From contig NZ_CP024845.1 of assembly GCF_002788215.1 (NCBI RefSeq), forward strand, positions 3,038,001 to 3,102,000: 64,000 nucleotides of DNA, read 5' to 3'. The notes beneath the pieces are model-generated. The model was not told the DNA's origin and did not search any database. It saw nothing but the letters and a program-made list of their open reading frames with translations. This DNA comes from Halohasta litchfieldiae (GTDB lineage: Archaea; Halobacteriota; Halobacteria; Halobacteriales; Haloferacaceae). The first letter of the stretch is position 1. Each line of letters begins with the position of its first letter. Below, piece after piece: positions 7,720-36,114 of the stretch. The translations under genes and the position numbers were made by a program.

Positions 7720-9552
7720 ATGACTGGACGATTTACACGACGGTCTGTGCTGCTGAGTCTCATGGCGGCGGCTGGCACAACACAGCTCCCGGCGACCGCA
7801 GCCCAAGAGTCGGAGGGACACGGCATCGAACAGGAGGGTGCAACGCTCACCCGGTTTGCAACTGGCCTTACTGGGGCCGAAATGACGGGCCTGTTTATTA
7901 CCGCCGAGGGCCAGTTTTTCTTCAACGTCCAGCACCCCGATACCGACGGCGACGACGAGGCCGACCCCGGAATCGTCGGCGCAGTCACCGGCGTCGACAT
8001 GAACCGGCTCCCGAAGGACTTCCCGAGCGTTCAGGTCCCGGAAGACGACGATGCCGAGGTCCGAACCGCAGTCGGCGACTACCAGCGGCTCGCCCGCGGC
8101 GGCGAGTCGACGGGCGATGGCGAGGAACTCGGCTCGGTCTACACTCCTGACGGTGAGTTCCTCGTCGGGCAGACTCACCCCGATTTTAACGGGTTTATTT
8201 CATCGAGCGAGGTCGACGGCGAGGGGTATCTGTTCACCAACTGGGAACACTGGCCGGGAACGATGAGTCGACTCCATCTCAGGCAGACCGGGCGAAACGG
8301 CCAGTGGGAAGTCTTGAACTCCGAGAACCTCGATTTCATCGATATCGAAGGAACGTGGCAGAACTGTTTTGGAACCGTCTCGCCGTGGGGAACGCCACTC
8401 ACCTCGGAGGAGAACTATCTCATCACCGACACCCCGGACTGGAACAATCCAGACTGGGATGACGATGAAGAACGGGAGAACGTCGACCGGCTCGCCCGTC
8501 ATCTCGGCCACGAGGAGGATGATGGAGAATTCACTGAAGCGTTCCCGAACCCCTACCGCTACGGCTACATCGTCGAACTAGAAGAGCCGGAACGAGAACC
8601 TCAGCCAGTCAAGCGGTTCGGACTCGGTCGGTCGGCCCACGAAAACGCGGTCGTGATGCCCGACCAGCGGACGGCCTACACCACCTCCGACGGCACCGGA
8701 CGCGGCTTCTACAAGTTCGTTGCCGACCAGCCGGGTGATCTTTCGGCAGGAACGCTGTATGCCGCCAAAGCAACGCAGCGTGGCCCAGACGGTGGCGACG
8801 TAGCGGCAGTCAGCTTTGGCTTGGAGTGGATCGAACTCGCTCACGCCACCGAGGAAGAAATCGAATCGTGGATCGCCGAGTACGACGACATCACCCAAGC
8901 CGACTACGAAGACGGTGAGACATCCTACATCACCGAGACAGAGATCGAAACGTGGGGCGATGGTGAGGCCCCTGACGACCGTGTTGCATTCCTCGAAACG
9001 ACCGCGGCCGCCGAAGCCAAAGGCGCAACGACCGAGTTCCGCAAAATGGAGGGCGTCAATATCCGCAGAAACGCCCAGCCGGGCGACTACATGTACGTCG
9101 GCATGTCGAACACCAACGAGACGATGAGCGACGACGAGGGCGACATCCAGATCGACGAGGAAGGTGGGGACTGGGGCGCAATGTACCGAATGGAACTCGA
9201 AGTCGACTACGATGTCAGCGAGATGGAACCCATCATCACCGGCGGTCCAGACGCAAATATCTGCGGTGGCTGCCCCTACGACGCCACCCCCCAGTCAAAC
9301 GACAAGGCCTGCCAGTCGTGTGCGTTCAACCCGACCCGAGACGAGGAAGACCGTGGTCGACTGGTCGGAACGATGAACCTCGCCAAATCGATGGCGATGA
9401 GCGGCCAGACCTCGCTTGATCCGGAAAACACGATTGCCGAACCCGACAACATCGTCGTCATGGACGACGGGCGGGTCGTCATTGGCGAAGACACGGGGAA
9501 CGAGGGCCACGACCACAACATGATCTGGATCTTCGATCCGGGCAACGCCTGA
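7720..9552 (+). CDS. PhoX-family (DUF839) phosphatase, Tat-exported
   Basis: A 610-residue beta-propeller protein of the PhoX/DUF839 family. The twin-arginine signal (R7, R8, then a hydrophobic run ending near ATAAQ) indicates export of the folded enzyme. C216 lies in NCFGTVSPWGTPLTSEE, the PhoX motif whose cysteine supports the Fe/Ca cofactor in characterised alkaline phosphatases. Unusually, residues 515-534 form a C-x2-C-x12-C-x2-C cluster that could hold zinc or iron-sulfur. The gene is monocistronic, with 293 bases of apparently non-coding DNA upstream and no PHO-type operator I can name. Confidence 0.88.
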   Translation: MTGRFTRRSVLLSLMAAAGTTQLPATAAQESEGHGIEQEGATLTRFATGLTGAEMTGLFITAEGQFFFNVQHPDTDGDDEADPGIVGAVTGVDMNRLPKDFPSVQVPEDDDAEVRTAVGDYQRLARGGESTGDGEELGSVYTPDGEFLVGQTHPDFNGFISSSEVDGEGYLFTNWEHWPGTMSRLHLRQTGRNGQWEVLNSENLDFIDIEGTWQNCFGTVSPWGTPLTSEENYLITDTPDWNNPDWDDDEERENVDRLARHLGHEEDDGEFTEAFPNPYRYGYIVELEEPEREPQPVKRFGLGRSAHENAVVMPDQRTAYTTSDGTGRGFYKFVADQPGDLSAGTLYAAKATQRGPDGGDVAAVSFGLEWIELAHATEEEIESWIAEYDDITQADYEDGETSYITETEIETWGDGEAPDDRVAFLETTAAAEAKGATTEFRKMEGVNIRRNAQPGDYMYVGMSNTNETMSDDEGDIQIDEEGGDWGAMYRMELEVDYDVSEMEPIITGGPDANICGGCPYDATPQSNDKACQSCAFNPTRDEEDRGRLVGTMNLAKSMAMSGQTSLDPENTIAEPDNIVVMDDGRVVIGEDTGNEGHDHNMIWIFDPGNA

Positions 9553-9620
9553 CAACCGAGAGCGACGCTCGATCAGTCCTTCTTCGTTATCCAAGCGAAG
9601 TTTCGCTACCACAAGCAAAA

Positions 9621-9628
9621 TTGTTTTA
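9621..9628 (+). promoter_or_regulatory. TATA-like element of the cobalamin operon
   Basis: TTGTTTTA lies 26-33 bases before the cbiT ATG at 9654, the spacing of a leaderless transcript. The inverted repeat that begins at 9628 touches its downstream edge. Confidence 0.5.
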
Positions 9629-9655
9629 TTGGCACGGTCAGTCGACAGTGCCAAT
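9628..9655 (+). promoter_or_regulatory. perfect inverted repeat over the cbiT start, candidate operator
   Basis: ATTGGCAC (9628-9635) and GTGCCAAT (9648-9655) are perfect 8-base inverted copies separated by 12 bases. They span the predicted transcription start and the first two bases of the cbiT start codon. A dimeric repressor bound here would block the whole cobalamin operon. The regulator is not encoded nearby in an obvious way. No cobalamin riboswitch fold is seen, and there is no leader long enough to hold one. Confidence 0.6.
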
Positions 9656-10241
9656 GCCACTTGCGCTGCCACACGACGCCAAGGCCGGACCGACCAAGTC
9701 GGAAGTACGGTCGGTACTGCTCGGTAAACTCGACCTGAGTGAGTCGGATCATTTCGCCGAGGTCGGCTCCTGTACCGGTGCAGTAACCATCGAGGCCGCC
9801 CGCCGGGCCGGTCGCGTGACCGCCCTCGAACGCAGGGCCAAACGCCTTGAAGTCACGAAAAAGAACCTCGCGGCCAACGAGGAGTCGGTCACTGCCGAGG
9901 TCGACCTCCGAAACGCCGAGGCCCCCGAGGGACTCCCCGACGATGCCGACGCCCTCTTTTTGGGTGGGAGCCGGAACTTCGAGGCCGTCTTGGATCACGC
10001 CGTCGACACCGAGGTCGACCGGATCGTGATGAACGTCTCGCGGCTGGAAGTCGCAGGCCGCGCCACGCAGGCGTTCCGCGACCGCGACATCTTGGAGGAG
10101 GTCGTCCAGTTTCAGGTGAGCCACGGCTACGAACTCGCCGGGGCGACGAGTTTCAACTCCGACAATCCAGTGTATATGCTCGTCGGCAGTGCAACAGAGG
10201 ACAGCGATGAAGGTGGCAAAAAGGCGGAGGCCACACAGTGA
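9654..10241 (+). CDS. cbiT: cobalt-precorrin C15 methyltransferase / decarboxylase CbiT
   Basis: A 195-residue class I methyltransferase of the CbiT family. It methylates C15 and decarboxylates the C12 acetate of cobalt-precorrin-6B/8 in the anaerobic B12 pathway. The SAM-binding loop is AEVGSCTGAVTIEAA at residues about 36-50, with Ser-Cys in place of the more usual Gly-Cys. I start at the ATG at 9654, which yields the MPLALPHDAKAGPTKSEVR lead of the family. This is the first gene of the operon. Its stop overlaps the GTG start of cbiL. The usual partner CbiE is not in this window. Confidence 0.92.
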   Translation: MPLALPHDAKAGPTKSEVRSVLLGKLDLSESDHFAEVGSCTGAVTIEAARRAGRVTALERRAKRLEVTKKNLAANEESVTAEVDLRNAEAPEGLPDDADALFLGGSRNFEAVLDHAVDTEVDRIVMNVSRLEVAGRATQAFRDRDILEEVVQFQVSHGYELAGATSFNSDNPVYMLVGSATEDSDEGGKKAEATQ

Positions 10242-10954
10242 CGCTGTACGGAATCGGCCTCGGTCCCGGCGAGGGTGATCTGGTGACCGTGCGAGGGAAA
10301 GAGATCCTCGACTCGGTCGACGTGGTCTACTCGCCCGGTCGACTCTCGCGGACGGTCGCACTGAAACACGTTGAGGAGTCCAAAATTGGGGACCTCGATT
10401 TCCCGATGACCCGCGACGAAGACAAACTCCGCACGGCATGGAAAGCCGCCGCCGAGGAAATCGCTCCGCAGGCCCGCGAGGGCGATGCGGCCTTTGTCAC
10501 CCTTGGCGATCCGAACATCTACTCGACGTTCGGCCATCTGCGCCGGACGCTGGATGCCTTCCATCCGGAAGTTGAGGTCGAAATTGTCCCCGGCGTCAGC
10601 GCGATGACCGCCTTCGCCACCGCGCTGGATGTCGAAATCGAAGCCGGGGCAGGCCTCTCGCTTCGGGAGGCCGCCAACGGCCACGCGCCGACTGGCCCGG
10701 ATCGGATGATCCTTTTTAAAGTGACTGACGCACCCGCGACCCACGAAGGGCTTGTCGAGGCTGGCTACGACGTGACCTACGGTCGACGGCTCTACATGAA
10801 GCAGGGTGAGACGATTATCACCGACGATCCAAGCGAGATCGACGAGCGCGACTACTACACCCTTGCGTATGCTGTCAAACGCGACCTCAACATAGAGCCA
10901 GCGACCGCGAAGTTCGCAGTCGACGAACACGACAGCGAGGAGGGCGAAGCATGA
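10238..10954 (+). CDS. cbiL: cobalt-factor II C20-methyltransferase CbiL
   Basis: A 238-residue tetrapyrrole methylase with GLGPGEGDL near the N terminus and the VPGVSAMTA SAM/substrate loop. CbiL methylates C20 of cobalt-factor II after cobalt insertion by CbiX. The start is GTG at 10238, overlapping the cbiT stop by 4 bases, and the stop overlaps the ATG of cbiF. The tight overlaps imply translational coupling through this part of the operon. Confidence 0.92.
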   Translation: MTLYGIGLGPGEGDLVTVRGKEILDSVDVVYSPGRLSRTVALKHVEESKIGDLDFPMTRDEDKLRTAWKAAAEEIAPQAREGDAAFVTLGDPNIYSTFGHLRRTLDAFHPEVEVEIVPGVSAMTAFATALDVEIEAGAGLSLREAANGHAPTGPDRMILFKVTDAPATHEGLVEAGYDVTYGRRLYMKQGETIITDDPSEIDERDYYTLAYAVKRDLNIEPATAKFAVDEHDSEEGEA

Positions 10955-11886
10955 GCGACGAGTCCGCGGCCGACTCCGGTGAGGAGACAGACCCGCAATC
11001 TGCCATCGATGCGCAAGGCGAGCGTCGACGGGCTGAACTCGATGACCGGATCTTCGACCACAACGCGGGCGACGAACAGGAGGGCATCCCCTTCGTGGGT
11101 GCCGGTCCCGGTGATCCACGACTCCTGACGGTCGCCGGAATGGAACTTCTCCAAGAGGCTGATCTGGTCGTCCATGCCGGCTCGCTGGTCAACAGCGAAC
11201 TGCTGGATGAGTACTGCGATCACGCCAAGACAGTCACCTCGATTGGAAAAGATCTCGAAGAGTTGATCCCGCTGATGCGGGACGCCCACCGAGAGGGCCG
11301 GAACGTCGTCCGACTCCACAGCGGCGATCCGGCGATCTACGGCGCGGCGCTCGAACAGATGGATGCCCTAGAGCATGAGGGAGTCTCAACCTACATCGTT
11401 CCGGGCGTCACCTCGGCGTTTGCGGCCAGCGCGTCGCTCCGGACCCAACTCACGCTCAACGAGGTCTCGAACCACGTCGCGTTCACCCGACCGCAGGGCA
11501 AGACTCTGACCGAAGAGGACGACCACATCAGCGAGTTCGTGGAGATGGGTGATGTGACCACCTGCATCTATCTCGGCACCCACGCCGTGGCCGACACGAT
11601 GGACCGACTCATCGAGGATGGCCACGACGAGGACATTCCGGTGGCTGTGGTCTATCACGCCTCGTGGCCCGACGAGGACATGATGATCGGGACGATTGGC
11701 ACGATTGGCGAGATCCTCGAAGAGGCGGGGCATCGGGCCTCGGCGATGGTCATTATCGGCGATGCCGTAACTGGGGCGGGCTACGAGCGATCCTTCCTCT
11801 ACGATGGCTGGGCGAATCGGGGCGACGACGGTGCGGAAGACGAGGAGTCGACGGCAGACGAAACCACGGAGACAACAACACAATGA
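10951..11886 (+). CDS. cbiF: cobalt-precorrin-4 C11-methyltransferase CbiF
   Basis: A 311-residue tetrapyrrole methylase. The catalytic core begins at about residue 47 (GAGPGDPRLLTV) after an acidic N-terminal extension. The HSGDPAIYGA and VPGVTSAFAA loops identify the C11-methyltransferase CbiF/CobM, which acts on cobalt-precorrin-4. The C-terminal 25 residues are a Glu/Thr-rich tail. It overlaps cbiL (ATGA) at its start and cbiG at its end. Confidence 0.93.
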   Translation: MSDESAADSGEETDPQSAIDAQGERRRAELDDRIFDHNAGDEQEGIPFVGAGPGDPRLLTVAGMELLQEADLVVHAGSLVNSELLDEYCDHAKTVTSIGKDLEELIPLMRDAHREGRNVVRLHSGDPAIYGAALEQMDALEHEGVSTYIVPGVTSAFAASASLRTQLTLNEVSNHVAFTRPQGKTLTEEDDHISEFVEMGDVTTCIYLGTHAVADTMDRLIEDGHDEDIPVAVVYHASWPDEDMMIGTIGTIGEILEEAGHRASAMVIIGDAVTGAGYERSFLYDGWANRGDDGAEDEESTADETTETTTQ

Positions 11887-12854
11887 GTACTGACAACGAC
11901 AGTTCTGACTCTGGCGGACACTGTAGCACAGCCGACAGCGACGGCGAGGTCGCCGAAGAGATCGCGATCATCTCCTTCAGCCGAAAGATGGAGACCGCCG
12001 AGGAGATCAAGGCTGAACTCGCCGACCGCTACGAGAAAATCGACATCATCGAGTACCACGGCGAGGTCTTCGACGACCACTGGGGCGAGTACGACTGCTT
12101 TATCGGCCTGATGGCCAGCGGGATCGCCATGCGGAAAACCGCCCACCTGCTCGACGACAAGTGGGACGACCCCGCCATCTGTGTCGTCGACGAAGCGCTC
12201 ACGTGGGCCATTCCGATCACCGGCGGCCATCACGGCGCGAATCAGGTCGCCCAAGACCTCGCCACGATGGGTGCGATCCCGGCGATGACCACAGCCTCCG
12301 AAGCAGCGGGCAAACAGGGCGTCGAGGCCCGCGCGAAGGCGATGGACTCCCACGTGGTGAATGGTCGGTCGACGATTCAGACCAACCTCGCGGTGCTCGA
12401 CGACAACCTTGGGCCAATCGCCCGACTCGACGGCCCGCAGGCCGTGCTGGTCGGCGATGATGTGACGGTTCTCAAACGAAACAAAGACGACGGCGTCGTC
12501 ATCGGGACTGGCAGCGTCTCGGGGGCGTCGGCTGAGTCGTTCATCGCGGCGTGGGAGACTGCGCTTGCGGAGACCGAGTACGGGTTCGAGGATGTCGACT
12601 TCGTTGCCACCGCGACCAGAAAGGAAGACGAGGAAGGCCTGTTGGAGGCCGCCGAAGAGTTGGATCTCGGCGTTGTTGCTTTCGACAAGGAAACGCTCCT
12701 CGAACACGAGGGGCCGACACCCTCCAGATCGAAGGAACTCATCGGCTGGCCCGGCGTCTCGGAGGCCTCGGCGATTGCCGGCGGCCGCGAGCAGGACCTC
12801 CTGCTCGAAAAAATCGGCTACGAAAACGAGGTGACGGTGGCGATCGGCCGATGA
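11883..12854 (+). CDS. cbiG: cobalt-precorrin-5A hydrolase CbiG
   Basis: A 323-residue CbiG, which opens the delta-lactone of cobalt-precorrin-5A and releases acetaldehyde, giving ring contraction in the anaerobic pathway. The N-terminal half carries the DCFIGLMASGIAMRK region of the CbiG N domain. The C-terminal domain ends in FVATATRKEDEEGLLEAA and GVSEASAIA. A 25-residue acidic leader with GGHC precedes the fold. The ATG at 11883 overlaps the cbiF stop. The longer open frame upstream is the cbiF gene read in another frame. Confidence 0.92.
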   Translation: MSTDNDSSDSGGHCSTADSDGEVAEEIAIISFSRKMETAEEIKAELADRYEKIDIIEYHGEVFDDHWGEYDCFIGLMASGIAMRKTAHLLDDKWDDPAICVVDEALTWAIPITGGHHGANQVAQDLATMGAIPAMTTASEAAGKQGVEARAKAMDSHVVNGRSTIQTNLAVLDDNLGPIARLDGPQAVLVGDDVTVLKRNKDDGVVIGTGSVSGASAESFIAAWETALAETEYGFEDVDFVATATRKEDEEGLLEAAEELDLGVVAFDKETLLEHEGPTPSRSKELIGWPGVSEASAIAGGREQDLLLEKIGYENEVTVAIGR

Positions 12855-13723
12855 GCAGCGAATCGACCGACAGCAGTACAGTCGACCAACCCGACGACCT
12901 CGGCACCCTCTCGGTCGTCGGCATCGGCCCAGGACTGCCCGACGACATGACCCAGCGCGCCAAACGAGTCATCGAGACCGCCGACTGCGTGATCGTCTCG
13001 GACCTCTATCAGGCGTTTCTCCGCGATGACGGCAGCCTGCCACCCAAAGACGAGGTCGACGACGATGGGTTCGTGACCCGCGACAACGGCCACCAACAGG
13101 AGATCATCCGGTCGACGATGGGTCGACAGATCGAACTCGCAAAAGTGGCCTTTGAGCGCGTCCGCGAGGGCGACGACGTGGCCCACGTCTCGGGCGGCGA
13201 TCCCTCAGTGTACGGCAAATCCGACCTGATTTTCAAGATGGCCGAGGAGGAAGACGCCACCGACGTTCCAATCGAGATCGTCCCCGGCATCACCGCCGCA
13301 CTCGGCGGCGGGGCGATGGTCGGCGCGCCGCTGTGCAACGATTTCTGTACGATCTCCTTATCCGATAAGTGGCGCGGCTGGGAGGAGATCGAACAGAAAC
13401 TGCGGGCCGCAGCGATCAGCGATTTCGTCATCGTTCTCTACAACTGCTGGCGAAACTACGAGAAGGCAGTCGACATCGTCCGTGAGGAGCGGACCGACGA
13501 TGCACTCGTCGCGATTGTCAACGACGCCGGGAGGAAAGACGCCGGGCGAAACGGTGAGGACCACTTTATTACGACACTCGGTGAGGCCACCGACCACGAC
13601 CAAAAGGTGTCTGGGATGGGGACATCGCTGATCATCGGCAACCACGAGACAGAGACGTGGAGCAACGACTACCGAACGTTCCTCGTCACCCCGCGCGGTG
13701 GGCGTGACGTCGAGAATTTCTAA
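12851..13723 (+). CDS. cbiH: precorrin-3B/cobalt-factor III C17-methyltransferase CbiH, copy 1
   Basis: A 290-residue tetrapyrrole methylase with GIGPGLPDDMTQRA, HVSGGDPSVYGK and VPGITAALGGGAMVGAP, the pattern of CbiH/CobJ C17-methyltransferases that also drive ring contraction. It ends with VTPRGGRDVENF. A second, diverged CbiH gene follows after 7 bases. The two copies differ clearly (CNDFCTISLSDKW here against VNDTVSISLSDHL there), so they may act on different intermediates or as a heterodimer, which is an inference. The start overlaps the cbiG stop (ATGA). Confidence 0.9.
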   Translation: MSSESTDSSTVDQPDDLGTLSVVGIGPGLPDDMTQRAKRVIETADCVIVSDLYQAFLRDDGSLPPKDEVDDDGFVTRDNGHQQEIIRSTMGRQIELAKVAFERVREGDDVAHVSGGDPSVYGKSDLIFKMAEEEDATDVPIEIVPGITAALGGGAMVGAPLCNDFCTISLSDKWRGWEEIEQKLRAAAISDFVIVLYNCWRNYEKAVDIVREERTDDALVAIVNDAGRKDAGRNGEDHFITTLGEATDHDQKVSGMGTSLIIGNHETETWSNDYRTFLVTPRGGRDVENF

Positions 13724-13730
13724 TTCAACC

Positions 13731-14645
13731 ATGAGTACGGACACAAACACGAATCAGACGGATGAATCGGCAAACGACGGATCAACTGGCGGCTGTACGG
13801 CCAAATCAGGGTCAACAAAAAAACAGTCGGTCGACGAGAAGATCGGCTCGACGGTCGACGATTTCGACGCCGAACCGGGGCAGTTGACGGCTGTGGGTCT
13901 CGGTCCCGGCCACCCAGAGGGGATGACCCAACGCGCACGTGCCGCGCTGCTGGATGCCGACCACATCGTCGGCTACACGACCTACATCGAACTCCTTCCG
14001 GAGGAGATCACCGAGGAGGCAGACGAACTGTACGATACGCCGATGTGTGGCGAGGTCTCACGAACCGAAGAGGCAATCGACCGCACGCTGGCGGGCCACG
14101 ACGTGGCGATCATCGGCAGCGGCGACCCCAACGTCTACGCGCTGTCTGGATTGGCGCTCGAAATCATCGAATCGAAGGGAGCCACGGCGTCGATGCTCAA
14201 TTACGAAGTCGTCCCCGGCGTCCCGGCTGCCCAGTCCTGTAGTGCGCTGCTCGGCGCGCCGCTTGTCAACGACACCGTTTCGATCTCGCTGTCCGATCAC
14301 TTGGTCCCGATGCCGGAGATCGAGTCCCGCCTCCATGCCGCCGCGGGTGAGAGTTTTACAATCGTTCTCTATAATCCATGGAGCCGGAAGCGCCGGGAGA
14401 ACTTCCAGAAGTGCTGTGAGATCCTGCTGGCTCACCGTGGCCCTGACACGCCGGTCGGCATCGTCCACGGCGCGGGCCGAGACGACGAGGAGGTCATGAT
14501 CACCACGCTGGACCAACTGGAGGAACTCGGAGAGAGCGAGATCATCGACATGACGACCACGATTCTGGTAGGCAACGAGGAGACCTACGTCTGGGACGAC
14601 CGGATGGTCACCCCGCGTGGCTACGAAACCAAATACGACTACTAA
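13731..14645 (+). CDS. cbiH: precorrin-3B/cobalt-factor III C17-methyltransferase CbiH, copy 2
   Basis: A 304-residue paralogue of the preceding gene. A low-complexity leader of about 45 residues rich in Asn, Thr and Ser precedes GLGPGHPEGMTQRARAA. IGSGDPNVYA and VPGVPAAQSCSALLGAPLVNDT are close to the classical CbiH/CobJ pattern, so this copy looks the more conventional C17-methyltransferase. It has its own ATG 7 bases after copy 1. Two cbiH copies in one operon are also known from other haloarchaea. The division of labour is not established. Confidence 0.9.
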   Translation: MSTDTNTNQTDESANDGSTGGCTAKSGSTKKQSVDEKIGSTVDDFDAEPGQLTAVGLGPGHPEGMTQRARAALLDADHIVGYTTYIELLPEEITEEADELYDTPMCGEVSRTEEAIDRTLAGHDVAIIGSGDPNVYALSGLALEIIESKGATASMLNYEVVPGVPAAQSCSALLGAPLVNDTVSISLSDHLVPMPEIESRLHAAAGESFTIVLYNPWSRKRRENFQKCCEILLAHRGPDTPVGIVHGAGRDDEEVMITTLDQLEELGESEIIDMTTTILVGNEETYVWDDRMVTPRGYETKYDY

Positions 14646-14646
14646 C

Positions 14647-14913
14647 ATGACTGCCTACGAAGTCACCCTCAACAAGGAGCCCTGTGACGGCATCTTCGCC
14701 TGTCTGACCCGCGATCCGCGGTTCGTCGAAGACGACGACGGACTGGCGACCATCGACCCCGACGGCGATCCGATCTACGACGGCGACGGCGAGGTCCGCG
14801 AGGAAAACGGCACCGTCATCGCCTCCTTCGACGACGAACGAATCGAGGAAGCCCGGCAGGCTGCGGCGGCCTGCCCCGTGAACGCAATCACCGTCGAGGA
14901 GGTCGACCAATGA
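14647..14913 (+). CDS. single-cluster ferredoxin of the cobalamin operon
   Basis: An 88-residue ferredoxin with C13-x5-C19 and C76-P. Three cysteines in a C-x5-C ... CP layout point to a [3Fe-4S] cluster, or a [4Fe-4S] cluster with one non-Cys ligand. The central insertion is acidic and Gly-rich. Within the operon it may supply electrons for ring contraction by CbiH (an Fe-S-dependent step in some bacteria) or for cobalt reduction. The ATG follows the cbiH stop by one base, and its end overlaps the next gene by 4 bases. Confidence 0.85.
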   Translation: MTAYEVTLNKEPCDGIFACLTRDPRFVEDDDGLATIDPDGDPIYDGDGEVREENGTVIASFDDERIEEARQAAAACPVNAITVEEVDQ

Positions 14914-15593
14914 GCATTGCCGTCCCCGACGATCTGCTGGCAGGCCACCCCTCGACGGCGTACTTTTGGGGTCGCGTGGCTGGCAACGGCGAGGTCGACC
15001 GCAATAGCCTCACTGTGACGACCAACGACGAGGCATCGGCCGAGACGATCAGCGAGATCGTCGGCAGCGAGGTCGACCACGACCGGAAAACCCGCGACTA
15101 CGCCCATAACACCGACATTAGCAAGACCGAAGACGAGTACACGGTGGAAGTGACGAGCGACGACCTCTTTGGAATGAGTGGCTCGCTCGGCTTGCCGGTC
15201 GACGGGCGCGGCAACTACCGGTTTGGAGCCTTCTCGGACTTCCGGCGTGATCTGCTTCGCGGCCTGCTGGAAGGCTGTGGAACGATCTGTTTCAAATCCT
15301 CCAGCGGGACTGTGGGTGTCTCGTTCGTCCACGATGACGCCGAGCTGCTCGAACTCGTCCAACAACTCATCGACGACTGCCCAGTCGACGCGCCCTACGG
15401 CGACCTCTCGGCGACCTCGTCGGGTGGCTACTGGTTCGGCGTCGACGACGACGTGGCTGCCGACTTCGGGATCTGGCTCTACGAAGGCACCGAGGATACG
15501 GGCCTGTTCGCGCCAAGTCGACGCCGGAAACTGGTGCAAAGTCTCGATCAAGCAACCGACGTCGAGTTCGACCGCTCACAGTTCGAACAATGA
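14910..15593 (+). CDS. cobalamin-operon protein with degenerate double LAGLIDADG fold
   Basis: A 227-residue soluble protein. Residues 17-29 (AYFWGRVAGNGEV) and 114-126 (DLLRGLLEGCGTI) align with the two LAGLIDADG helices of homing endonucleases. Each is followed by beta strands and helices in the right order, and the GIWLYEGTED segment matches the usual C-terminal part of each half. The catalytic acids at the end of each motif are replaced (Gly-Asn-Gly and Gly-Cys-Gly), so DNA cleavage is unlikely. It starts 4 bases inside the ferredoxin gene and overlaps cbiX, so it is a fixed member of the operon. A DNA- or RNA-binding regulatory role like WhiA is an inference. Confidence 0.75.
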   Translation: MSIAVPDDLLAGHPSTAYFWGRVAGNGEVDRNSLTVTTNDEASAETISEIVGSEVDHDRKTRDYAHNTDISKTEDEYTVEVTSDDLFGMSGSLGLPVDGRGNYRFGAFSDFRRDLLRGLLEGCGTICFKSSSGTVGVSFVHDDAELLELVQQLIDDCPVDAPYGDLSATSSGGYWFGVDDDVAADFGIWLYEGTEDTGLFAPSRRRKLVQSLDQATDVEFDRSQFEQ

Positions 15594-16816
15594 GTCAGGG
15601 CCAGCTTCGGAACGCCATCGATTCGGTCGACAATGAGGCCGTCCTGCTCGTGGGGCATGGCTCGCGCCGCGAGAAATCCAACGAGCAGGTCCGCGAGCTG
15701 GCGGCGATGCTCGAAGACCGACTGGAGATTCCGGTCGACGCCGCCTTTCTCGAACTGGCCGAGCCTGCGATTCCGGATGCTATCGAGGGGTTGGCTGCGA
15801 CTGTCGACTCGGTGACGGTCGTCCAGCTCTCGCTGTTCGCCGCGAGCCACGTCAAAAACGACGTGCCGGTCGCGGTCCAGCAGGCGCGGTCGGCCCACGA
15901 AACCGAGATCAAAAACGGCGCGCATCTCGGTATCCATCCCGCGATTGTCGACCTGCTGGATGATAGGGCAAAAGCGGTCGAAGAAGAGTTGGGCGTCGAC
16001 CGCGAGGAAGACGACGTGGCGGCGGTCGTCTGCGGTCGTGGATCGAGTGATCCGGATGCCAACGCCGACCTCCACAAACTCTCGCGGTTGCTGTACGAGG
16101 GCCGGGAGTTCTCGCACGTCGAAGCCTCGTTTATTGGGATCACCGAGCCGACGCTGGACGACTCGCTGTCGACCATCGCCAAACAGCGGCCCGACGCTAT
16201 CGTCGTGGTCCCCTACATGCTCGGCGACGGTGTGTTGACTGGGCGGATTCGGGAGTGGACTGACGACTTTGATGAGGAGTATCCCTACGTCGACGCCAGC
16301 TGTGGCGATCCGCTTGGGACCGACTCACGGCTGCTGGATGTGCTGGGTGATCGGTGGCAGGAGGCTCGGACCGACAGCGTCGAAATGTCGTGTGACACCT
16401 GCAAGTACAAGGTCGACCTCACCGGCTACGAGGAGGATACGGGCGGTGCGCGAGCGATGCTGCGGGCGCTCACCCAACAGGAGACTCACGCCGACCGGAG
16501 CGATGTCGACGATGATCCGCATACGCACGATGCGCCAGCAAAACACGTCGCCGTCTGTACGAACCAGACCTGCGCCGAAGACGGTGCGCCCGCGGTGCTC
16601 GAACGCCTCCGGCAGGAGGCACGGGACTCCGATGAATGCGATGCTCGGATTACGCGCTCGTCGTGTCTGGGGCGGTGTGGCGAAGGACCGATGGTCGCCG
16701 TCTACCCCGAGAACGTCTGGTATGGCGGCGTCCAAGCCGAAGACGCCGAACGCATCGTCTCGTCGCATCTCGACCGCGACCGCATCGTGAGCGATCTGGT
16801 CGACCAGACGCTTTAA
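15590..16816 (+). CDS. cbiX: sirohydrochlorin cobaltochelatase CbiX with C-terminal ferredoxin domain
   Basis: A 408-residue long-form CbiX that inserts Co2+ into sirohydrochlorin. Two chelatase half-domains cover residues about 15-260, with H23 in VGHGSR and a second His in SHVKNDVP as metal-site candidates. A MSCDTC motif (266-271) follows, the M-x-C-x2-C pattern known from redox-active CbiX. Next is a short His/Asp-rich stretch near 305 (PHTHDAPAKH). A thioredoxin-like [2Fe-2S] domain closes the protein, with C323, C328, C359 and C363. It overlaps the preceding gene by 4 bases. Confidence 0.93.
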   Translation: MSQGQLRNAIDSVDNEAVLLVGHGSRREKSNEQVRELAAMLEDRLEIPVDAAFLELAEPAIPDAIEGLAATVDSVTVVQLSLFAASHVKNDVPVAVQQARSAHETEIKNGAHLGIHPAIVDLLDDRAKAVEEELGVDREEDDVAAVVCGRGSSDPDANADLHKLSRLLYEGREFSHVEASFIGITEPTLDDSLSTIAKQRPDAIVVVPYMLGDGVLTGRIREWTDDFDEEYPYVDASCGDPLGTDSRLLDVLGDRWQEARTDSVEMSCDTCKYKVDLTGYEEDTGGARAMLRALTQQETHADRSDVDDDPHTHDAPAKHVAVCTNQTCAEDGAPAVLERLRQEARDSDECDARITRSSCLGRCGEGPMVAVYPENVWYGGVQAEDAERIVSSHLDRDRIVSDLVDQTL

Positions 16817-16841
16817 TCACACTGACCAACCACACACATCT

Positions 16842-17213
16842 ATGAGCTGTTACGAAATCGAAGCACTCCGACTCGGATTGATGAACGTCCTTGGAACCGA
16901 AGATCCCGCGGCCCGCGAACACGCCGAAACCGAACTTGAGGGCCACCTCACCGGCCCAATCGAGGCGCTGGCCGACGCCGACTCGCTGTCGGCAATCGAG
17001 CGCCATCTCGACGCCGCGCTAGTCGACCTCGAAGAGGAAGTCGCCACCACCTCCTCTGATGACCCCGAGTACAACTATCTCCGCGGTCGACTGGTCGCCG
17101 TCCGGGATGCCGAACGCGCGGTCCACCGCATCACCGCCCAAGGCGAAAGCGTTCTCTCGGGACTCGGCGAGGCACACGACGTGCTTCACGAGACGTTCCC
17201 AGTCGAAGACTGA
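16842..17213 (+). CDS. DUF3209-family protein of the cobalamin cluster
   Basis: A 123-residue soluble, almost fully helical protein starting MSCYEIEALRLGLMNVLG. I recognise it as the haloarchaeal DUF3209 family, of no known function, normally found beside cobalamin genes. The conserved N-terminal Cys-Tyr-Glu-Ile-Glu segment is the most specific feature. The gene starts 25 bases after cbiX. A weak CTTTAATC element about 30 bases before its ATG might give it an additional start. It is followed after 3 bases by the beta-propeller gene, so the pair are co-transcribed. Confidence 0.8.
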   Translation: MSCYEIEALRLGLMNVLGTEDPAAREHAETELEGHLTGPIEALADADSLSAIERHLDAALVDLEEEVATTSSDDPEYNYLRGRLVAVRDAERAVHRITAQGESVLSGLGEAHDVLHETFPVED

Positions 17214-17216
17214 GTC

Positions 17217-18437
17217 ATGGCCGACGCAACCGACGCGCTCCGAACGGTCGACCTCGGTGCAATCGAACCGGCCCGAAGCCGCCATATGTGGACCCGGTCG
17301 AGCCTCGCGCTCACCGACTCGCTGGCTGTCGTCGGCCAGTGGGACGGCACGATCACCGCGGTCGACCGCGAATCCCTCGACACTGTGTGGACGGTCGACC
17401 ACGTCGACAGCCCCGCCTCCCTGCTCGAATCCGACGACCAAATCATCGCGGCTGGTCGCGGCGAGACGGGGACCATCGCAGCCTACGACGCCAAAACAGG
17501 CGACCAACAGTGGTCGTATGCCACCGCCGACGACATCGGCGCACCGACGTCGGACCGCGTGTTCGAACAGCCCTACGTGGTCGACCTCGCGGTGGGTGAG
17601 GACCGACTGTTTGCGGCGGCCCGACGCTACGAACGCGACGGCAAGGACCGACGCTGGCACAGCGCGGTGTACGCCTTCGGTTCAGAGGGCACCGTCGACT
17701 GGCAGTACTCGGTCGACGCTTCACCAATCGCCCTCGCCCCCAATGCCGCGGGCGACCGCCTCGCGGTCGGCTACAACCGATGTATGGGCGACCACAACCA
17801 TGGCCTCGTCGTCCTCGACACAGCCAGTGGCCAACCGGCGTGGATGTGGGACCCCGGCACCGAAGGCGACCGCCGGGTCGGCGACGTATCCTACGACGGC
17901 GACTCGCTGGCGGTCACGAGCCACGGCGACAAACGGGGCTATCTGCTCGGACCGGGCGGTCGACAGCAGTGGCGCGTCGACCTCGCGGTCCCGACCGAAA
18001 TAGAAGACGAAACGCTGTATGCCTACCCGAACCACGTCCACGCCCACGATGGCCGCGTGGCCTTCCTAACTGGGAATACCTACCCGGAGGAGGGCCGCGA
18101 AACCGAGGGTCGACACCCGAACGAACACCGAATCGTGGGGGTCGACGCCGACGGTGCTGAGTTATGGGACGCCGACCTCGGAGGGTTCGTCCACGGCACG
18201 GCGGTCGACGGGGATCGAATCGTCATCCCCTGTGCCCAGAATTTCCGAACGCGCGATTCGTCGACGCATGCTCTGCGGGAGTTCAATCTCGCAGGCGGGC
18301 CAAAAGAGGCGACGACAGTCGACGGGATTTCGACTGCGGCGGCGGTCGACGGCGGCGCAGTGGCGATGGTCGAAGAGCCAATCGTCTACCACGACGAGGG
18401 CGAGAAACGCGGCTCGTACGCGTTGCATCTCGGATAA
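17217..18437 (+). CDS. cytoplasmic PQQ-like beta-propeller protein of the cobalamin cluster
   Basis: A 406-residue protein built of repeated strands with WTVDHV, WSYATADD, WQYSVDA, WMWDPG and WRVDLAV blades, the pattern of PQQ-like/BamB propellers. No signal peptide or membrane anchor is present, so it should stay in the cytoplasm, unlike true quinoprotein dehydrogenases. A Cys-Met-Gly-Asp-His-Asn-His group (residues 189-195) might bind a metal. Lying 3 bases after the DUF3209 gene at the end of the cobalamin operon, it may help handle cobalt or the corrin, but there is no direct evidence. Confidence 0.75.
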   Translation: MADATDALRTVDLGAIEPARSRHMWTRSSLALTDSLAVVGQWDGTITAVDRESLDTVWTVDHVDSPASLLESDDQIIAAGRGETGTIAAYDAKTGDQQWSYATADDIGAPTSDRVFEQPYVVDLAVGEDRLFAAARRYERDGKDRRWHSAVYAFGSEGTVDWQYSVDASPIALAPNAAGDRLAVGYNRCMGDHNHGLVVLDTASGQPAWMWDPGTEGDRRVGDVSYDGDSLAVTSHGDKRGYLLGPGGRQQWRVDLAVPTEIEDETLYAYPNHVHAHDGRVAFLTGNTYPEEGRETEGRHPNEHRIVGVDADGAELWDADLGGFVHGTAVDGDRIVIPCAQNFRTRDSSTHALREFNLAGGPKEATTVDGISTAAAVDGGAVAMVEEPIVYHDEGEKRGSYALHLG

Positions 18438-18455
18438 GGGACTGTTTTTCCGCAA

Positions 18456-19301
18456 CTACTCCGGTCGCTCTGTTGGGTTGATGTCGTGTGCGTGAACGAG
18501 TGGTAACCCACTGTCTGCGGCCGCCTCGAACTCGCCGTCGACGAAGGTCTTGATACACTCGTCGTCGTGGTCTGCGTGGCCGAGATACCACTCACCAACC
18601 TGCAGATGGAGGAGTACCTCGCAGTCCGTACAGTAGCGGTAGCCCGTCGACCCCTCGCCACCGTGGGCGGCCTGCCGGACACTCTTACAGAGTCGGTGTT
18701 TGCCCCACCATTGCTCGCAGTTCGGACAGCCATACACGTAGTTGAAATCCGACTGTCGACGCTCGTAGTAGGTCGAACACCGCCCCGGCAGTTCGAGGGG
18801 GTCGACCCACGCCCGAAAGGAGTCGCCGTGACCCGTCTCGATGGTGAACCCGGCGTCGACGGCCGTGTTCCGGCCACCGGTCGCGGGCCCGGTGTCGGCG
18901 TGGTCGCTGTGGCCCCCATCGGGGGTCGCAGTCGCACCGTCAGCCCGGAGTTCGATCCCCATCTCGCCGACGACTGCCCGCTCGCCACGATGTTGGTACT
19001 GCCAGGCGTGGACGAGTTCGTGGCGGATCGTCATCTTGCAGGCCGCGAACCCCGCTCGGTCGTAGGTGTGTTCGGTCAGTGTGATTGTCGCGCGGCCATC
19101 GCCGTCGTAGGAACACCGCCCGTGTCGACGCTTCGCGCGCGTCGAGGTCGACCACGTGATTTTGCTGAGGTCGACGCCGTCGAGCGGCCACTCCTCGCCG
19201 CAAACCACGGCCTCGCCGTACCCACGGGCCCGACGGGAGAGCTCGTGGTTGTCCCCCAGCGTCCCGACCGTATCGACTGCCCGACTGTCTGTGATTCGCA
19301 C
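18456..19301 (-). CDS. SprT-like zinc metalloprotease
   Basis: A 281-residue SprT-like protein. HELVH at 94-98 with H158 (GHGDSF) forms the metal site. A C-terminal zinc ribbon uses C192, C195, C224 and C227. A Gly/Ala/His-rich insertion (about 120-150) separates the two parts. SprT/Spartan proteins cut protein-DNA crosslinks in eukaryotes, but the archaeal members are untested. The start is GTG at 19301, chosen because a GTATATATG element lies 28 bases upstream, giving a leaderless message. It is convergent with the propeller gene. Confidence 0.85.
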   Translation of the reverse strand: MRITDSRAVDTVGTLGDNHELSRRARGYGEAVVCGEEWPLDGVDLSKITWSTSTRAKRRHGRCSYDGDGRATITLTEHTYDRAGFAACKMTIRHELVHAWQYQHRGERAVVGEMGIELRADGATATPDGGHSDHADTGPATGGRNTAVDAGFTIETGHGDSFRAWVDPLELPGRCSTYYERRQSDFNYVYGCPNCEQWWGKHRLCKSVRQAAHGGEGSTGYRYCTDCEVLLHLQVGEWYLGHADHDDECIKTFVDGEFEAAADSGLPLVHAHDINPTERPE

Positions 19302-32508: not shown

Positions 32509-35500
32509 CTATGTCGTCCGAAGGTGACCTTGGGTCGGTTCGTACAGTTCGCCTTTCCGGCGGAGGTTCTCGATTTCTTTTTCGGCTTTGGTGGCCTCCA
32601 TGCCGATCTCGCTAGCCCGTTCAAGCACTTCGTCGACCGGTGCGCCCTCCTCGAACTCGTCTTCGATCTCGGCGATCAGCTGCTTGATGTTCTTGATCCG
32701 GTCCCGTTGGGTTTTCGAGGTCCCCGTCTCGACCACGTCGGCATCGAACTGGCCAGTCTCGGGGTCGACACCGATATCCTTCAGACAGGAGCGAACGATA
32801 TCAACGGATCGGGTCGCGTCCTCCTCGTCGACGGTATCCGAGAGCCGTACCCGTGCGCTGGCCTCCGCCAGCCTGACGAGTGCCTCCAGCTTTCGGGCCG
32901 TGACCGGAATCGGCGCGTCCTCATCGGCCCCTTTCGAGCGCAGGTCGACGTAGAACTCCCGAATTGCGGCTTTGGCCTCGTCGGTCATCGTCGGGAAACA
33001 GGAGCGTTTGGCGTGGGCGATATACTTCCGAAGGAGTTCGGCGTCGATCTCGGGGGCGACCTGTTCGGTTACCTCGTCGACCTGCTCCTGGGTGAACTCC
33101 GAGGTCGGCACGTTGGCGCGTTGCGTGTTCAACTCACCCGCGTAGTTTGTCTTGAGGATGTGGTCGGCCAGCATGCCGTCGTGTTCGGGGTCGGGCTTGT
33201 CAGTAACCGTAAAGATGAGATCGAACCGCGAGACGAGTGCGGGTTCGAGATCGATCTGCTCGCCGATTGGTTCGTACTGGTCGAACCGGCCGTACTTCGG
33301 ATTCGCCGCGCCGAGCAGTGAACACCGAGATTTGAGCGTGGCGTTGATCCCTGCTTTCGAGATACTGATCTGTTGCTGCTCAAGAGCTTCATGCATAGCC
33401 GACCGGTCTTCCGGTCGCATTTTATCTAGCTCGTCAACCGCTGCGATCCCTTGGTCGGCCAACACGAGCGCACCGGCTTCGAGGGTCCACTGCTGGCCGT
33501 CGCCGAAGTCATCTCTTACAGCTGCCGCAGTAAGCCCGGCCGAACTGCTGCCCTTCCCGGAGGTGTACACCGATCTCGGGGCAATATTCTCGATATATGA
33601 TAGCATTTGGGAGTTGTGGGAGATGACGTTGTTCGTGAGGTAGTTGTGAGTTCCCTCGACTTCCAGATCGTAGACCCAGTCGTCGTCGGGGGTGACTGTC
33701 TCAATCGTCTCGATTTTCTCCCATCCAACGTCGCCATCAGCCAACTGTCGGAGCGCGTCAACATCTCGCGTGAGGCTGTCGACACCACCGTCAGAAGCAA
33801 TGACTGTCTGTTCAGCGGTTGTGTCTGTCATCGCATCTTCGAATGCAGATACGACGCGTGAGAGCGCGTCACGGCTTGGATTTCGTCGGTTTCGCTCATA
33901 ATGCTGATACGTGCTTCGTGGAAGGTTGCACGAAGCCTGTGGGAGCTCAAGCGCCTCCCGAATTCGTTTGAGCTCGGCCCCGATATTCGGCACTACATCG
34001 CGGTTTGTATTGCTTGCTGTACTACCGTGTTTCAGTGTAGCCTGTGTTTTCCGTTCCGTAACAAATCCGACCTCGTCGACGTACCGTTTGAATTGGTCTC
34101 CACTGATTCGGAGTCGGTAACTGCCGTTCTGTCGTTCTGCAAGCTGCGAAGAGATACCGAGCGAGAGCAGCAGGCTTCGGACGTTTGCCAACAGCTCACG
34201 ACTCATCGAGGCAACTGAAATCTCTCGTTGCGTCGCTGAAACGTGTCCTTCGCCCTCGATATACGCTTTGAGGAATGCGGCTTTGATTTCGACTGACGCG
34301 CTCTGAATTGCGGGTGGTACTCGCTGTGTGTCCGAGCCAGTGAGCAGTTTGCTGTCACAGTGCTCAAGGAAGCTTACGAACTCCCCTGACGAGCACATGA
34401 GTTCCTCGGCATCCTTTCCATCGTGTGGTTCTCGAATCGTAGTGTTCAATCCAAGATCCGAAAGCGTCTGTGTAGCATCGGCTAAGACTTTCTCGTCATT
34501 ATTTGTAATCGAGACGAAGCCAGTATTATCCTCGCGCTGCTCAACGTATCCCTCTGCGACAATGTATCCGAGCAAGCGGGCTAACTCGGGGGTCCATCTG
34601 TCCGGCAATGATAATTCGACTGCGTTGTATGACTGGGATGCTCGATACGTAGCTTCGAGTCCATCGGAACCGTCGCTTGGAATCGTCTGTGGAACTCCAA
34701 TAAAATCACCGACAGAAAGGTCTTCAGCACGGATTGGTGTGAACTGGGCGTTCTGCTGGACGAACAGCGGATGTGATGGAGTAACCGTTACTGATGACCC
34801 CGTCTGAGTCGTGATCCGGTACAATTGCTCGGGGGCCTCACGTTTCCAGACTTTCGTTGCGTGGCCAGTCCCGAGTGTCCCGTCCTGCTGGAGTGTCGGG
34901 ATCGTAATGTCGACTTCGTCCCACACACCGTCGTCGACCGGTTTTGGATCGTCCAAATTCGATTCGACAAGCTCCTCGATTTCCGTTTCCGAGCCGTCAG
35001 CGAGCGTAACCCGCGTCTCCCCGGAAACGCACTTACCAGTACCAGGGTCACCAATAAGCAGCATATGAAGATCGCCACGAATCCGAGAGCCATCGGGGAG
35101 GTTTTTCGTCACACCCGAAAACAACTGCAAAATCATCGCTAGTTTCTCTTCGTCGTAGCCGTAGATCGACGGTGCGACCGAGGCGACCATCTTCTCGTAG
35201 ATATCCGGTGAGTTCGAGAGTTCGATGATCTCGGTTTTGTCCTCCTGCGTGATGTCCATATCCTCGAACACCTCGTCCTCGATGGTGACCGAGACGCCGT
35301 CCATATAGAGGTCGAACAGCGAGGATTTGCCGTCGTTGCCGTCCATCTGCTCGATGTGGAGGACGCCGACAACGGTGACGTGGTCGCCCGCGGTGACTTT
35401 CCCGGTCACGTCGTCTTCGATATTGATATCGATGCTCTGTGGGGTTTCGCCCCCGCGGAGTCCTTCGGGACTCTCCTGAATGCGGAGTTTCTGGGCGTCG

Positions 35501-36030
35501 ACGAACTCCGACTGGTCGAAGTTGATCTTGAATGGGCCTTCGCGCTCGCAGCCCTGACAGTCGTGGGGTTCCTGGAAGTCGCCGTCCTCCTGTGGAATGT
35601 AGTTCATCGTCCCACAGCGCTGGCATTCGAACGCCGAATCCGTTATTTTGGGTCGGACATCGGTGGCTTTGCGGATGATTCCCTGTACGGAGACGAGTTT
35701 GCCGATGTGGTTGTCGTGGACCCGGATGCCGCGGATGTCCACGGAGTCTGGAAGGTTCTGTAGTCGGACGTGGGCGTTGCCGAGTTTGACGTCGGCGGGC
35801 AGATCGTAGAGTCGGAGGGCCTCCTCGGCGTACTCCTGGATCTGGTCGGGTTGGGAGAGATAGTCGTCGGCGAGATCGCGGTCGAACTGGTAGAGGTCGT
35901 CGTAGTCGACGTACAGCGAACGCTGTTCGTTGGGATACTTCTGGGCGAGCGTCCCGATGTCGTCGCGGTAGTAGTTACGGTAGAACTGAATAAACCGATC
36001 AGTGAGTTCCTGATTCCCTGCCTGAGCCAT
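32509..36030 (-). CDS. mcm: MCM replicative DNA helicase with an intein
   Basis: The ATG at 36030 starts MAQAGNQELTDRF. The precursor has 1173 residues: 333 N-terminal extein residues, a 473-residue intein, and 367 C-terminal extein residues. Splicing gives a 700-residue MCM, the normal archaeal length. Zinc-finger cysteines C136, C139, C158 and C161 are in the N domain. Walker A GDPGTGKS is formed only after splicing. LADQGIAAVDELDKM contains Walker B, and arginine-finger and sensor motifs follow. A C-terminal winged helix ends the protein. MCM forms the hexameric replicative helicase that unwinds 3'-5' ahead of the fork. Confidence 0.96.
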   Translation of the reverse strand: MAQAGNQELTDRFIQFYRNYYRDDIGTLAQKYPNEQRSLYVDYDDLYQFDRDLADDYLSQPDQIQEYAEEALRLYDLPADVKLGNAHVRLQNLPDSVDIRGIRVHDNHIGKLVSVQGIIRKATDVRPKITDSAFECQRCGTMNYIPQEDGDFQEPHDCQGCEREGPFKINFDQSEFVDAQKLRIQESPEGLRGGETPQSIDINIEDDVTGKVTAGDHVTVVGVLHIEQMDGNDGKSSLFDLYMDGVSVTIEDEVFEDMDITQEDKTEIIELSNSPDIYEKMVASVAPSIYGYDEEKLAMILQLFSGVTKNLPDGSRIRGDLHMLLIGDPGTGKCVSGETRVTLADGSETEIEELVESNLDDPKPVDDGVWDEVDITIPTLQQDGTLGTGHATKVWKREAPEQLYRITTQTGSSVTVTPSHPLFVQQNAQFTPIRAEDLSVGDFIGVPQTIPSDGSDGLEATYRASQSYNAVELSLPDRWTPELARLLGYIVAEGYVEQREDNTGFVSITNNDEKVLADATQTLSDLGLNTTIREPHDGKDAEELMCSSGEFVSFLEHCDSKLLTGSDTQRVPPAIQSASVEIKAAFLKAYIEGEGHVSATQREISVASMSRELLANVRSLLLSLGISSQLAERQNGSYRLRISGDQFKRYVDEVGFVTERKTQATLKHGSTASNTNRDVVPNIGAELKRIREALELPQASCNLPRSTYQHYERNRRNPSRDALSRVVSAFEDAMTDTTAEQTVIASDGGVDSLTRDVDALRQLADGDVGWEKIETIETVTPDDDWVYDLEVEGTHNYLTNNVISHNSQMLSYIENIAPRSVYTSGKGSSSAGLTAAAVRDDFGDGQQWTLEAGALVLADQGIAAVDELDKMRPEDRSAMHEALEQQQISISKAGINATLKSRCSLLGAANPKYGRFDQYEPIGEQIDLEPALVSRFDLIFTVTDKPDPEHDGMLADHILKTNYAGELNTQRANVPTSEFTQEQVDEVTEQVAPEIDAELLRKYIAHAKRSCFPTMTDEAKAAIREFYVDLRSKGADEDAPIPVTARKLEALVRLAEASARVRLSDTVDEEDATRSVDIVRSCLKDIGVDPETGQFDADVVETGTSKTQRDRIKNIKQLIAEIEDEFEEGAPVDEVLERASEIGMEATKAEKEIENLRRKGELYEPTQGHLRTT
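33613..35031 (-). other. intein in MCM, with LAGLIDADG endonuclease and an HTH segment
   Basis: The 473-residue intein lies between Lys333 and Ser807 of the MCM precursor. It begins CVSGETRV (block A), has TVTPSHPLFV (block B, Thr-x2-His) and ends VEGTHNYLTNNVISHN (blocks F and G) before extein Ser, so it should self-splice. Two LAGLIDADG helices, LARLLGYIVAEGYV and IKAAFLKAYIEGEGHV, show an intact-looking homing endonuclease. Between endonuclease and C-terminal splicing block lies an XRE-like helix-turn-helix (ELKRIREALELPQ, then STYQHYERNRRNPS). Homing would target the Walker A codons of intein-free mcm. Confidence 0.93.
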
Positions 36031-36114
36031 TGCAGAGCCGTAGGTCGTCCTCACCTATGAACTTCAGGATCATCGAACCGCGACAGCCAAGGAGTCCCCG
36101 AAACGACGCCTCGT

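Follow-up and report, generated by a model that had tools for sequence, protein, structure and literature searches.

The cobalamin (B12) operon of the haloarchaeon Halohasta litchfieldiae encodes a protein of 227 amino acids that has the complete double-LAGLIDADG fold of a homing endonuclease, has replaced the residues with which such enzymes cleave DNA, is under purifying selection, and occupies one and the same operon slot, between a ferredoxin and the cobaltochelatase CbiX, in practically all of the B12-making Halobacteria. We tentatively favour, at a little below even chances, the reading that this protein works as a non-nucleolytic partner of that ferredoxin and of CbiX rather than as a regulator. 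The relevant features of the window, by which we mean the whole stretch of 64,000 nucleotides that was analysed, are the following.

9592 to 9628, forward strand: conserved tandem operator, CAA-N6-TT(T/G) / CTA-N3-CAA-N6-TTG-TTTTA, found upstream of cbiT with or without the LAGLIDADG gene.
9628 to 9655, forward strand: inverted repeat pointed out in an earlier note on this DNA; genuine, unconserved in sister species.
9654 to 14645, forward strand: core corrin-ring genes cbiT, cbiL, cbiF, cbiG, cbiH1 and cbiH2, in conserved order.
14617 to 14913, forward strand: single-cluster 4Fe-4S ferredoxin (Fer4_15), overlapping the LAGLIDADG gene by 4 bp; its real start is possibly further in.
14910 to 15593, forward strand: double-LAGLIDADG protein, predicted to be cleavage-dead; orthologue of Haloferax volcanii HVO_B0055 by gene order.
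14958 to 14996, forward strand: LAGLIDADG motif 1 (residues 17-29, AYFWGRVAGNGEV), catalytic position N26.
15249 to 15287, forward strand: LAGLIDADG motif 2 (residues 114-126, DLLRGLLEGCGTI), catalytic position C123, followed by C127 and K129.
15590 to 16816, forward strand: CbiX cobaltochelatase with a C-terminal thioredoxin-like [2Fe-2S] domain and a 4-bp overlap with the LAGLIDADG gene.
16842 to 17213, forward strand: DUF3209 protein, predicted to be all-helical, with a structural match to Thermus TTHB059 (2ehw).
17217 to 18437, forward strand: PQQ-type beta-propeller protein of the same accessory module.

The reading frame and its 4-base overlaps are present as the earlier note had described them, both junctions being ATGA, with the ATG of the LAGLIDADG gene lying over the ferredoxin stop at 14913 and the ATG of CbiX (15590) over the LAGLIDADG stop. 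The AlphaFold2 model, built from an input of 38 haloarchaeal sequences (pLDDT 89, pTM 0.87), shows an alpha-beta-beta-alpha-beta-beta unit repeated twice, and the 50 PDB matches listed by Foldseek are all LAGLIDADG nucleases, maturases, inteins or WhiA (TMq 0.43-0.61), so that the double-LAGLIDADG fold first proposed from the motifs is borne out. The best of these listed matches is I-Tsp061I (E 4.9e-8) and the second best is the bacterial regulator WhiA (3hyi; E 9.9e-8, TMq 0.51), with the bI3 maturase, I-DmoI, I-SceI and inteins also among them, while TMq rose to 0.74 in a library of viral structures. PDB chains were matched by the fold search alone, as neither the single protein nor its profile found any of them by sequence, and the NCBIfam scans gave the protein no family name. 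In Pfam, the window protein on its own matches LAGLIDADG_3 under the cut-off (E 0.029). Of 38 members of its family, however, 23 do match LAGLIDADG_3 (best 2.5e-4), and it is the sole Pfam family that most of the 38 match. A standard of comparison lies in the same window, where the MCM helicase gene (32509 to 36054, reverse strand) contains an intein whose two LAGLIDADG motifs are intact, each with its catalytic Glu. The profile of the operon protein aligns with that intein endonuclease in register, motif 1 on motif 1 and motif 2 on motif 2 (E 4.6e-5, HHalign probability 69%), and its domain-1 hairpin is the shorter of the two. The protein shares fold and motif order with the haloarchaeal LAGLIDADG_3 intein endonucleases, and differs from them in being free-standing, without a splicing domain, more acidic, and in carrying Asn, Ser or Asp plus Cys where they carry their catalytic Glu pair.

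The earlier note had read the catalytic acids as replaced, by Asn in the first motif and Cys in the second, and this holds well beyond the window. Among 99 sequences, position 26 is S in 64, D in 25, N in 8 and G in 1, position 123 is C in 97, S in 1 and T in 1, and no relative has both acids together, so no member of the family would be expected to cleave DNA by the LAGLIDADG mechanism; judged by these residues, the protein would be cleavage-dead throughout. Other positions are kept strictly, with C127, Y191, R204 and K207 invariant in 99/99 and H66 present in 98. The protein is under purifying selection, with dN/dS of 0.045-0.11 between close species, values similar to those of CbiX and CbiH2, and this low ratio points to selection for something other than cleavage. 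Its net charge of -12 per 100 residues, compared with -4 for the LAGLIDADG domains of haloarchaeal inteins, matches that of the enzymes of the operon, the values being those of whole proteins and not of surfaces; an acidic composition is general in halophiles.

The distribution of the gene is equally strict. It was found in 145 of 150 CbiG-positive and in 0 of 142 CbiG-negative genomes of Halobacteria (292 in total), its tree roughly parallels that of CbiG, and a phylum-wide search found no relatives outside the Halobacteria. The ferredoxin gene lies directly upstream in 70/70 loci and CbiX is the next gene downstream in 69 of these, the remaining one being a copy in a metagenome-assembled genome split in two pieces. 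This fixed slot, together with inheritance alongside CbiG, argues that the gene is not a passenger, as had been claimed from the overlaps, and the dead site, constant slot and purifying selection seen across the aligned haloarchaeal clusters likewise uphold its domestication within the operon. A passenger homing endonuclease or maturase, whether still active or inactivated only recently, would account for the fold and the two motifs, but with no member of 99 having both acids, Cys at the second site in 97, dN/dS as low as 0.05-0.11, and a gene that keeps its operon slot and is not inside any intron or intein, we consider it very nearly dismissed.

Individual genomes depart from this arrangement. 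In a deep-branching and divergent one (G037, L114 5448-8454), the LAGLIDADG gene is flanked by two cation-efflux genes, with a rhodanese gene next to it, and is located on a separate contig from the cbi operon. In another (G065, L111 10703-11644), the LAGLIDADG gene is missing and its slot is filled by a second CbiX, whose C-terminal tail is His-rich and whose gene has the identical 4-bp overlap with the ferredoxin; this genome probably lost just the LAGLIDADG gene, after the accessory module described below had been gained. A third (G008, L118) has two CbiG copies. One of its clusters combines a highly divergent CbiG with a LAGLIDADG protein that contains a low-complexity insert, and no ferredoxin was detected in it.

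The four other CbiG-positive genomes without the gene (G020, G024, G137 and G274) keep cbiT-L-F-G-H1-H2-X and lack, jointly, the LAGLIDADG gene, the ferredoxin, DUF3209, the beta-propeller gene and the 2Fe-2S domain of CbiX. DUF3209 occurs in 148 of the 292 genomes, a set nearly identical to that of the LAGLIDADG gene, with a match only below the cut-off in G274. When the CbiG tree is rooted on 13 rows from the phylum's other families, the operons lacking the module lie at the base, outside the 28 rows of the module type (fork support 93/87, and 98/85 where G137, a long branch, joins), and from this basal position the module was probably gained later, and once. COX1 is present in 288 of the 292 genomes and missing in G020, G024, G102 and G137; the three of these that have CbiG (G020, G024 and G137) are all module-less, yet G274 is module-less with COX1 present. 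The association is real, with two or three lineages behind it, and a tie between the module and aerobic respiration is suggestive. The DUF3209 protein of the window has 34% identity to Thermus thermophilus TTHB059 (2ehw), and among the control genomes both DUF3209 and CbiG occur in Thermus, another aerobe, which is consistent with an aerobe-associated module without proving it.

These module-less operons also bear on a published question about the pathway. According to the main text of PMC8305020, HVO_B0052, B0053, B0055 and B0056 are the genes without assigned function in the Haloferax cobalamin cluster and offer themselves as obvious candidates to close the CbiD and CbiJ gaps, and HVO_B0055 is flanked there by HVO_B0056 (the gene after cbiH2) and HVO_B0054 (cbiX1), that is, it sits in the identical operon slot; that main text does not describe its LAGLIDADG nature. 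Following that proposal, the LAGLIDADG protein would fill one of two consecutive gaps, CbiD (EC 2.1.1.195) or CbiJ (EC 1.3.1.106), and the gaps themselves are real, since CbiD was found in 0 of 292 Halobacteria genomes and CbiJ in 0 of 16, the module-less ones included; the strict co-occurrence with CbiG and the synteny also speak for it. The present distribution opposes it, however, because G020, G024, G137 and G274 have the operon, CbiC included, with neither CbiD nor CbiJ and with none of the four unassigned genes, which therefore do not explain the gap in these genomes; G065, too, has the operon and no CbiD while lacking the gene, and as the module-less genomes are basal, the gap is older than the module. 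In addition, no SAM or NADPH site is known for the LAGLIDADG fold, and no sequence match to CbiD or CbiJ was found in Pfam or NCBIfam (38 members in Pfam), so we regard the gap-filling role as improbable. If the module-less genomes make B12, as their gene content suggests, the substitutes for CbiD and CbiJ must be encoded elsewhere. The module-less operons at L109, L110, L112 and L113, mostly from COX1-lacking genomes, keep both cbiH1 and cbiH2 and have no CbiD or CbiJ, and the divergent CbiH1 may be a candidate for the missing C1 methylation.

The earlier note had also proposed that the protein senses or regulates cobalamin synthesis, possibly by binding the inverted repeat at 9628-9655. That repeat has 12-nt arms (92%) and is absent at the same place in five relatives of the Halonotius group (L001-L004 and L067), so that it fails as a conserved target. 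Directly upstream of it lies a far better conserved element, a tandem palindromic operator of the form [MAA-N6-TTK]-N2-CTA-N3-[CAA-N6-TTG]TTTTA, recognisable before cbiT in all 42 upstream regions examined, unique in the window where none is expected by chance, and located some 25-45 bp upstream of the cbiT ATG, where it would overlap the likely TATA region and promoter. A second copy precedes cbiH1 where the cbiH1 part is a separate unit (L062, L064 and probably L005). A WhiA-like regulator, in which the dead endonuclease binds the operator DNA or the leader or operon mRNA and acts as a sensor of cobalt, corrinoid or redox state, would have a strongly conserved site at hand, repeated before the separate cbiH1 units, as well as conserved basic residues for contacting it, and some regulator is needed, since no riboswitch or other Rfam family, the cobalamin riboswitch included, was found in 9000-19000. 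The HEN domain of WhiA offers a precedent, as it uses its beta-sheet to bind an auxiliary DNA motif, which it releases on ATP (PMC11701221). Nevertheless, all 5 genomes whose operon is without the LAGLIDADG gene (L109-L113) retain the operator, so its binder is probably another protein. Two apparent signs to the contrary were set aside: the operators with and without the gene do differ (left half-site AAG instead of CAA or AAA in one clade of three, and a different centre), but this difference tracks phylogeny over very few lineages, and the altered operator of G065 (TTGATTTT), which could be taken for decay after gene loss, is not significant, given that other operators deviate at that place too.

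The comparison with WhiA cuts both ways. WhiA (DUF199) is likewise a domesticated, single-copy protein with a degenerate LAGLIDADG domain devoid of catalytic acids, and it stands as the nearest analogue, which is one part of the earlier proposal that survives. It belongs, however, to another domain of life, and most of its DNA binding is done by a C-terminal HTH (PMC3781837), whereas the operon protein has just 13 residues after the last long helix of its model, shows no HTH domain in Pfam and NCBIfam scans of the 38 members, and has no WhiA-family model among those same matches; it also resides in a metabolic operon. The absence of an HTH, an acidity like that of the operon enzymes, a domain-1 hairpin that is short beside that of the intein endonuclease, the lack of conservation of the repeat, a gene placed between two enzyme-type genes at all loci, and a gain together with Fe-S and DUF3209 genes all weigh against a regulator, which we hold to be a possible reading, though not our favoured one, with roughly a third of our confidence.

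The reading that we favour, partnership with ferredoxin and CbiX, draws on the co-occurrence with CbiG, the slot between these two genes in 70 loci, dN/dS values like those of CbiX, the joint absence of the module, the lack of COX1 in three of the four module-less genomes and their basal position in the CbiG tree, the contexts in G065 and G037 (one case each), the acidity, and the invariant residues. A LAGLIDADG_3-type endonuclease, of the kind common in haloarchaeal inteins, would have lost cleavage and, early in the ancestry of most of the B12-making haloarchaea, been captured a single time into the cobalt-early B12 operon, arriving within an accessory module made up of the 4Fe-4S ferredoxin, the LAGLIDADG protein, the 2Fe-2S extension of CbiX, DUF3209 and the beta-propeller protein. 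The protein would act at the protein level, co-translated and stoichiometric with the ferredoxin and CbiX, its putative direct partners. More speculatively as regards ligand and chemistry, it may aid cobalt insertion, or the redox handling or protection of early cobalt-corrinoids in oxygen-exposed cells, a link to oxygen that we infer from few independent lineages, and the former DNA saddle, with residues H66, C123/C127 and K129, may have been reused for the new role. Against this partnership it counts that, to our knowledge, every LAGLIDADG protein of known function acts on nucleic acid, and that the conserved basic K129, R204, R206 and K207 would suit nucleic acid. It also counts against it that the HEN domain of WhiA binds both DNA and ATP (PMC11701221).

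A further parallel may be sought in the cbi operon of Bacillus megaterium, which contains accessory Fe-S proteins and in which we know of no LAGLIDADG protein; it differs from the haloarchaeal operon in having CbiD and CbiJ. That operon, cbiWHXJCDETLFGA, belongs to an aerobe that uses the cobalt-early route (PMC8123684).

Domestication of LAGLIDADG proteins is rare, the familiar cases being WhiA and yeast HO; we know of none with a function outside nucleic acids, and our literature search found no paper joining LAGLIDADG and cobalamin biosynthesis. A third domesticated case, HTH-less and settled in a biosynthetic operon throughout the aerobic Halobacteria, offers a clean test of what the fold does without cleavage. 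That the fold has here left nucleic-acid biochemistry altogether, its DNA saddle now handling metal, Fe-S or corrinoids within a module that adapts an anaerobic-type B12 pathway to oxygen, is the boldest form of our proposal, and we consider it rather unlikely. The published question about CbiD and CbiJ is sharpened in turn, as the substitutes are to be sought outside the four unassigned genes, which probably make up an oxygen-linked accessory module. Both the role of the fold and the gap question are directly testable in the genetically tractable Haloferax volcanii. Most probably, this former endonuclease entered the B12 operon a single time, alongside genes that nearly all the oxygen-respiring, B12-making relatives of Halohasta possess and the strict anaerobes lack.
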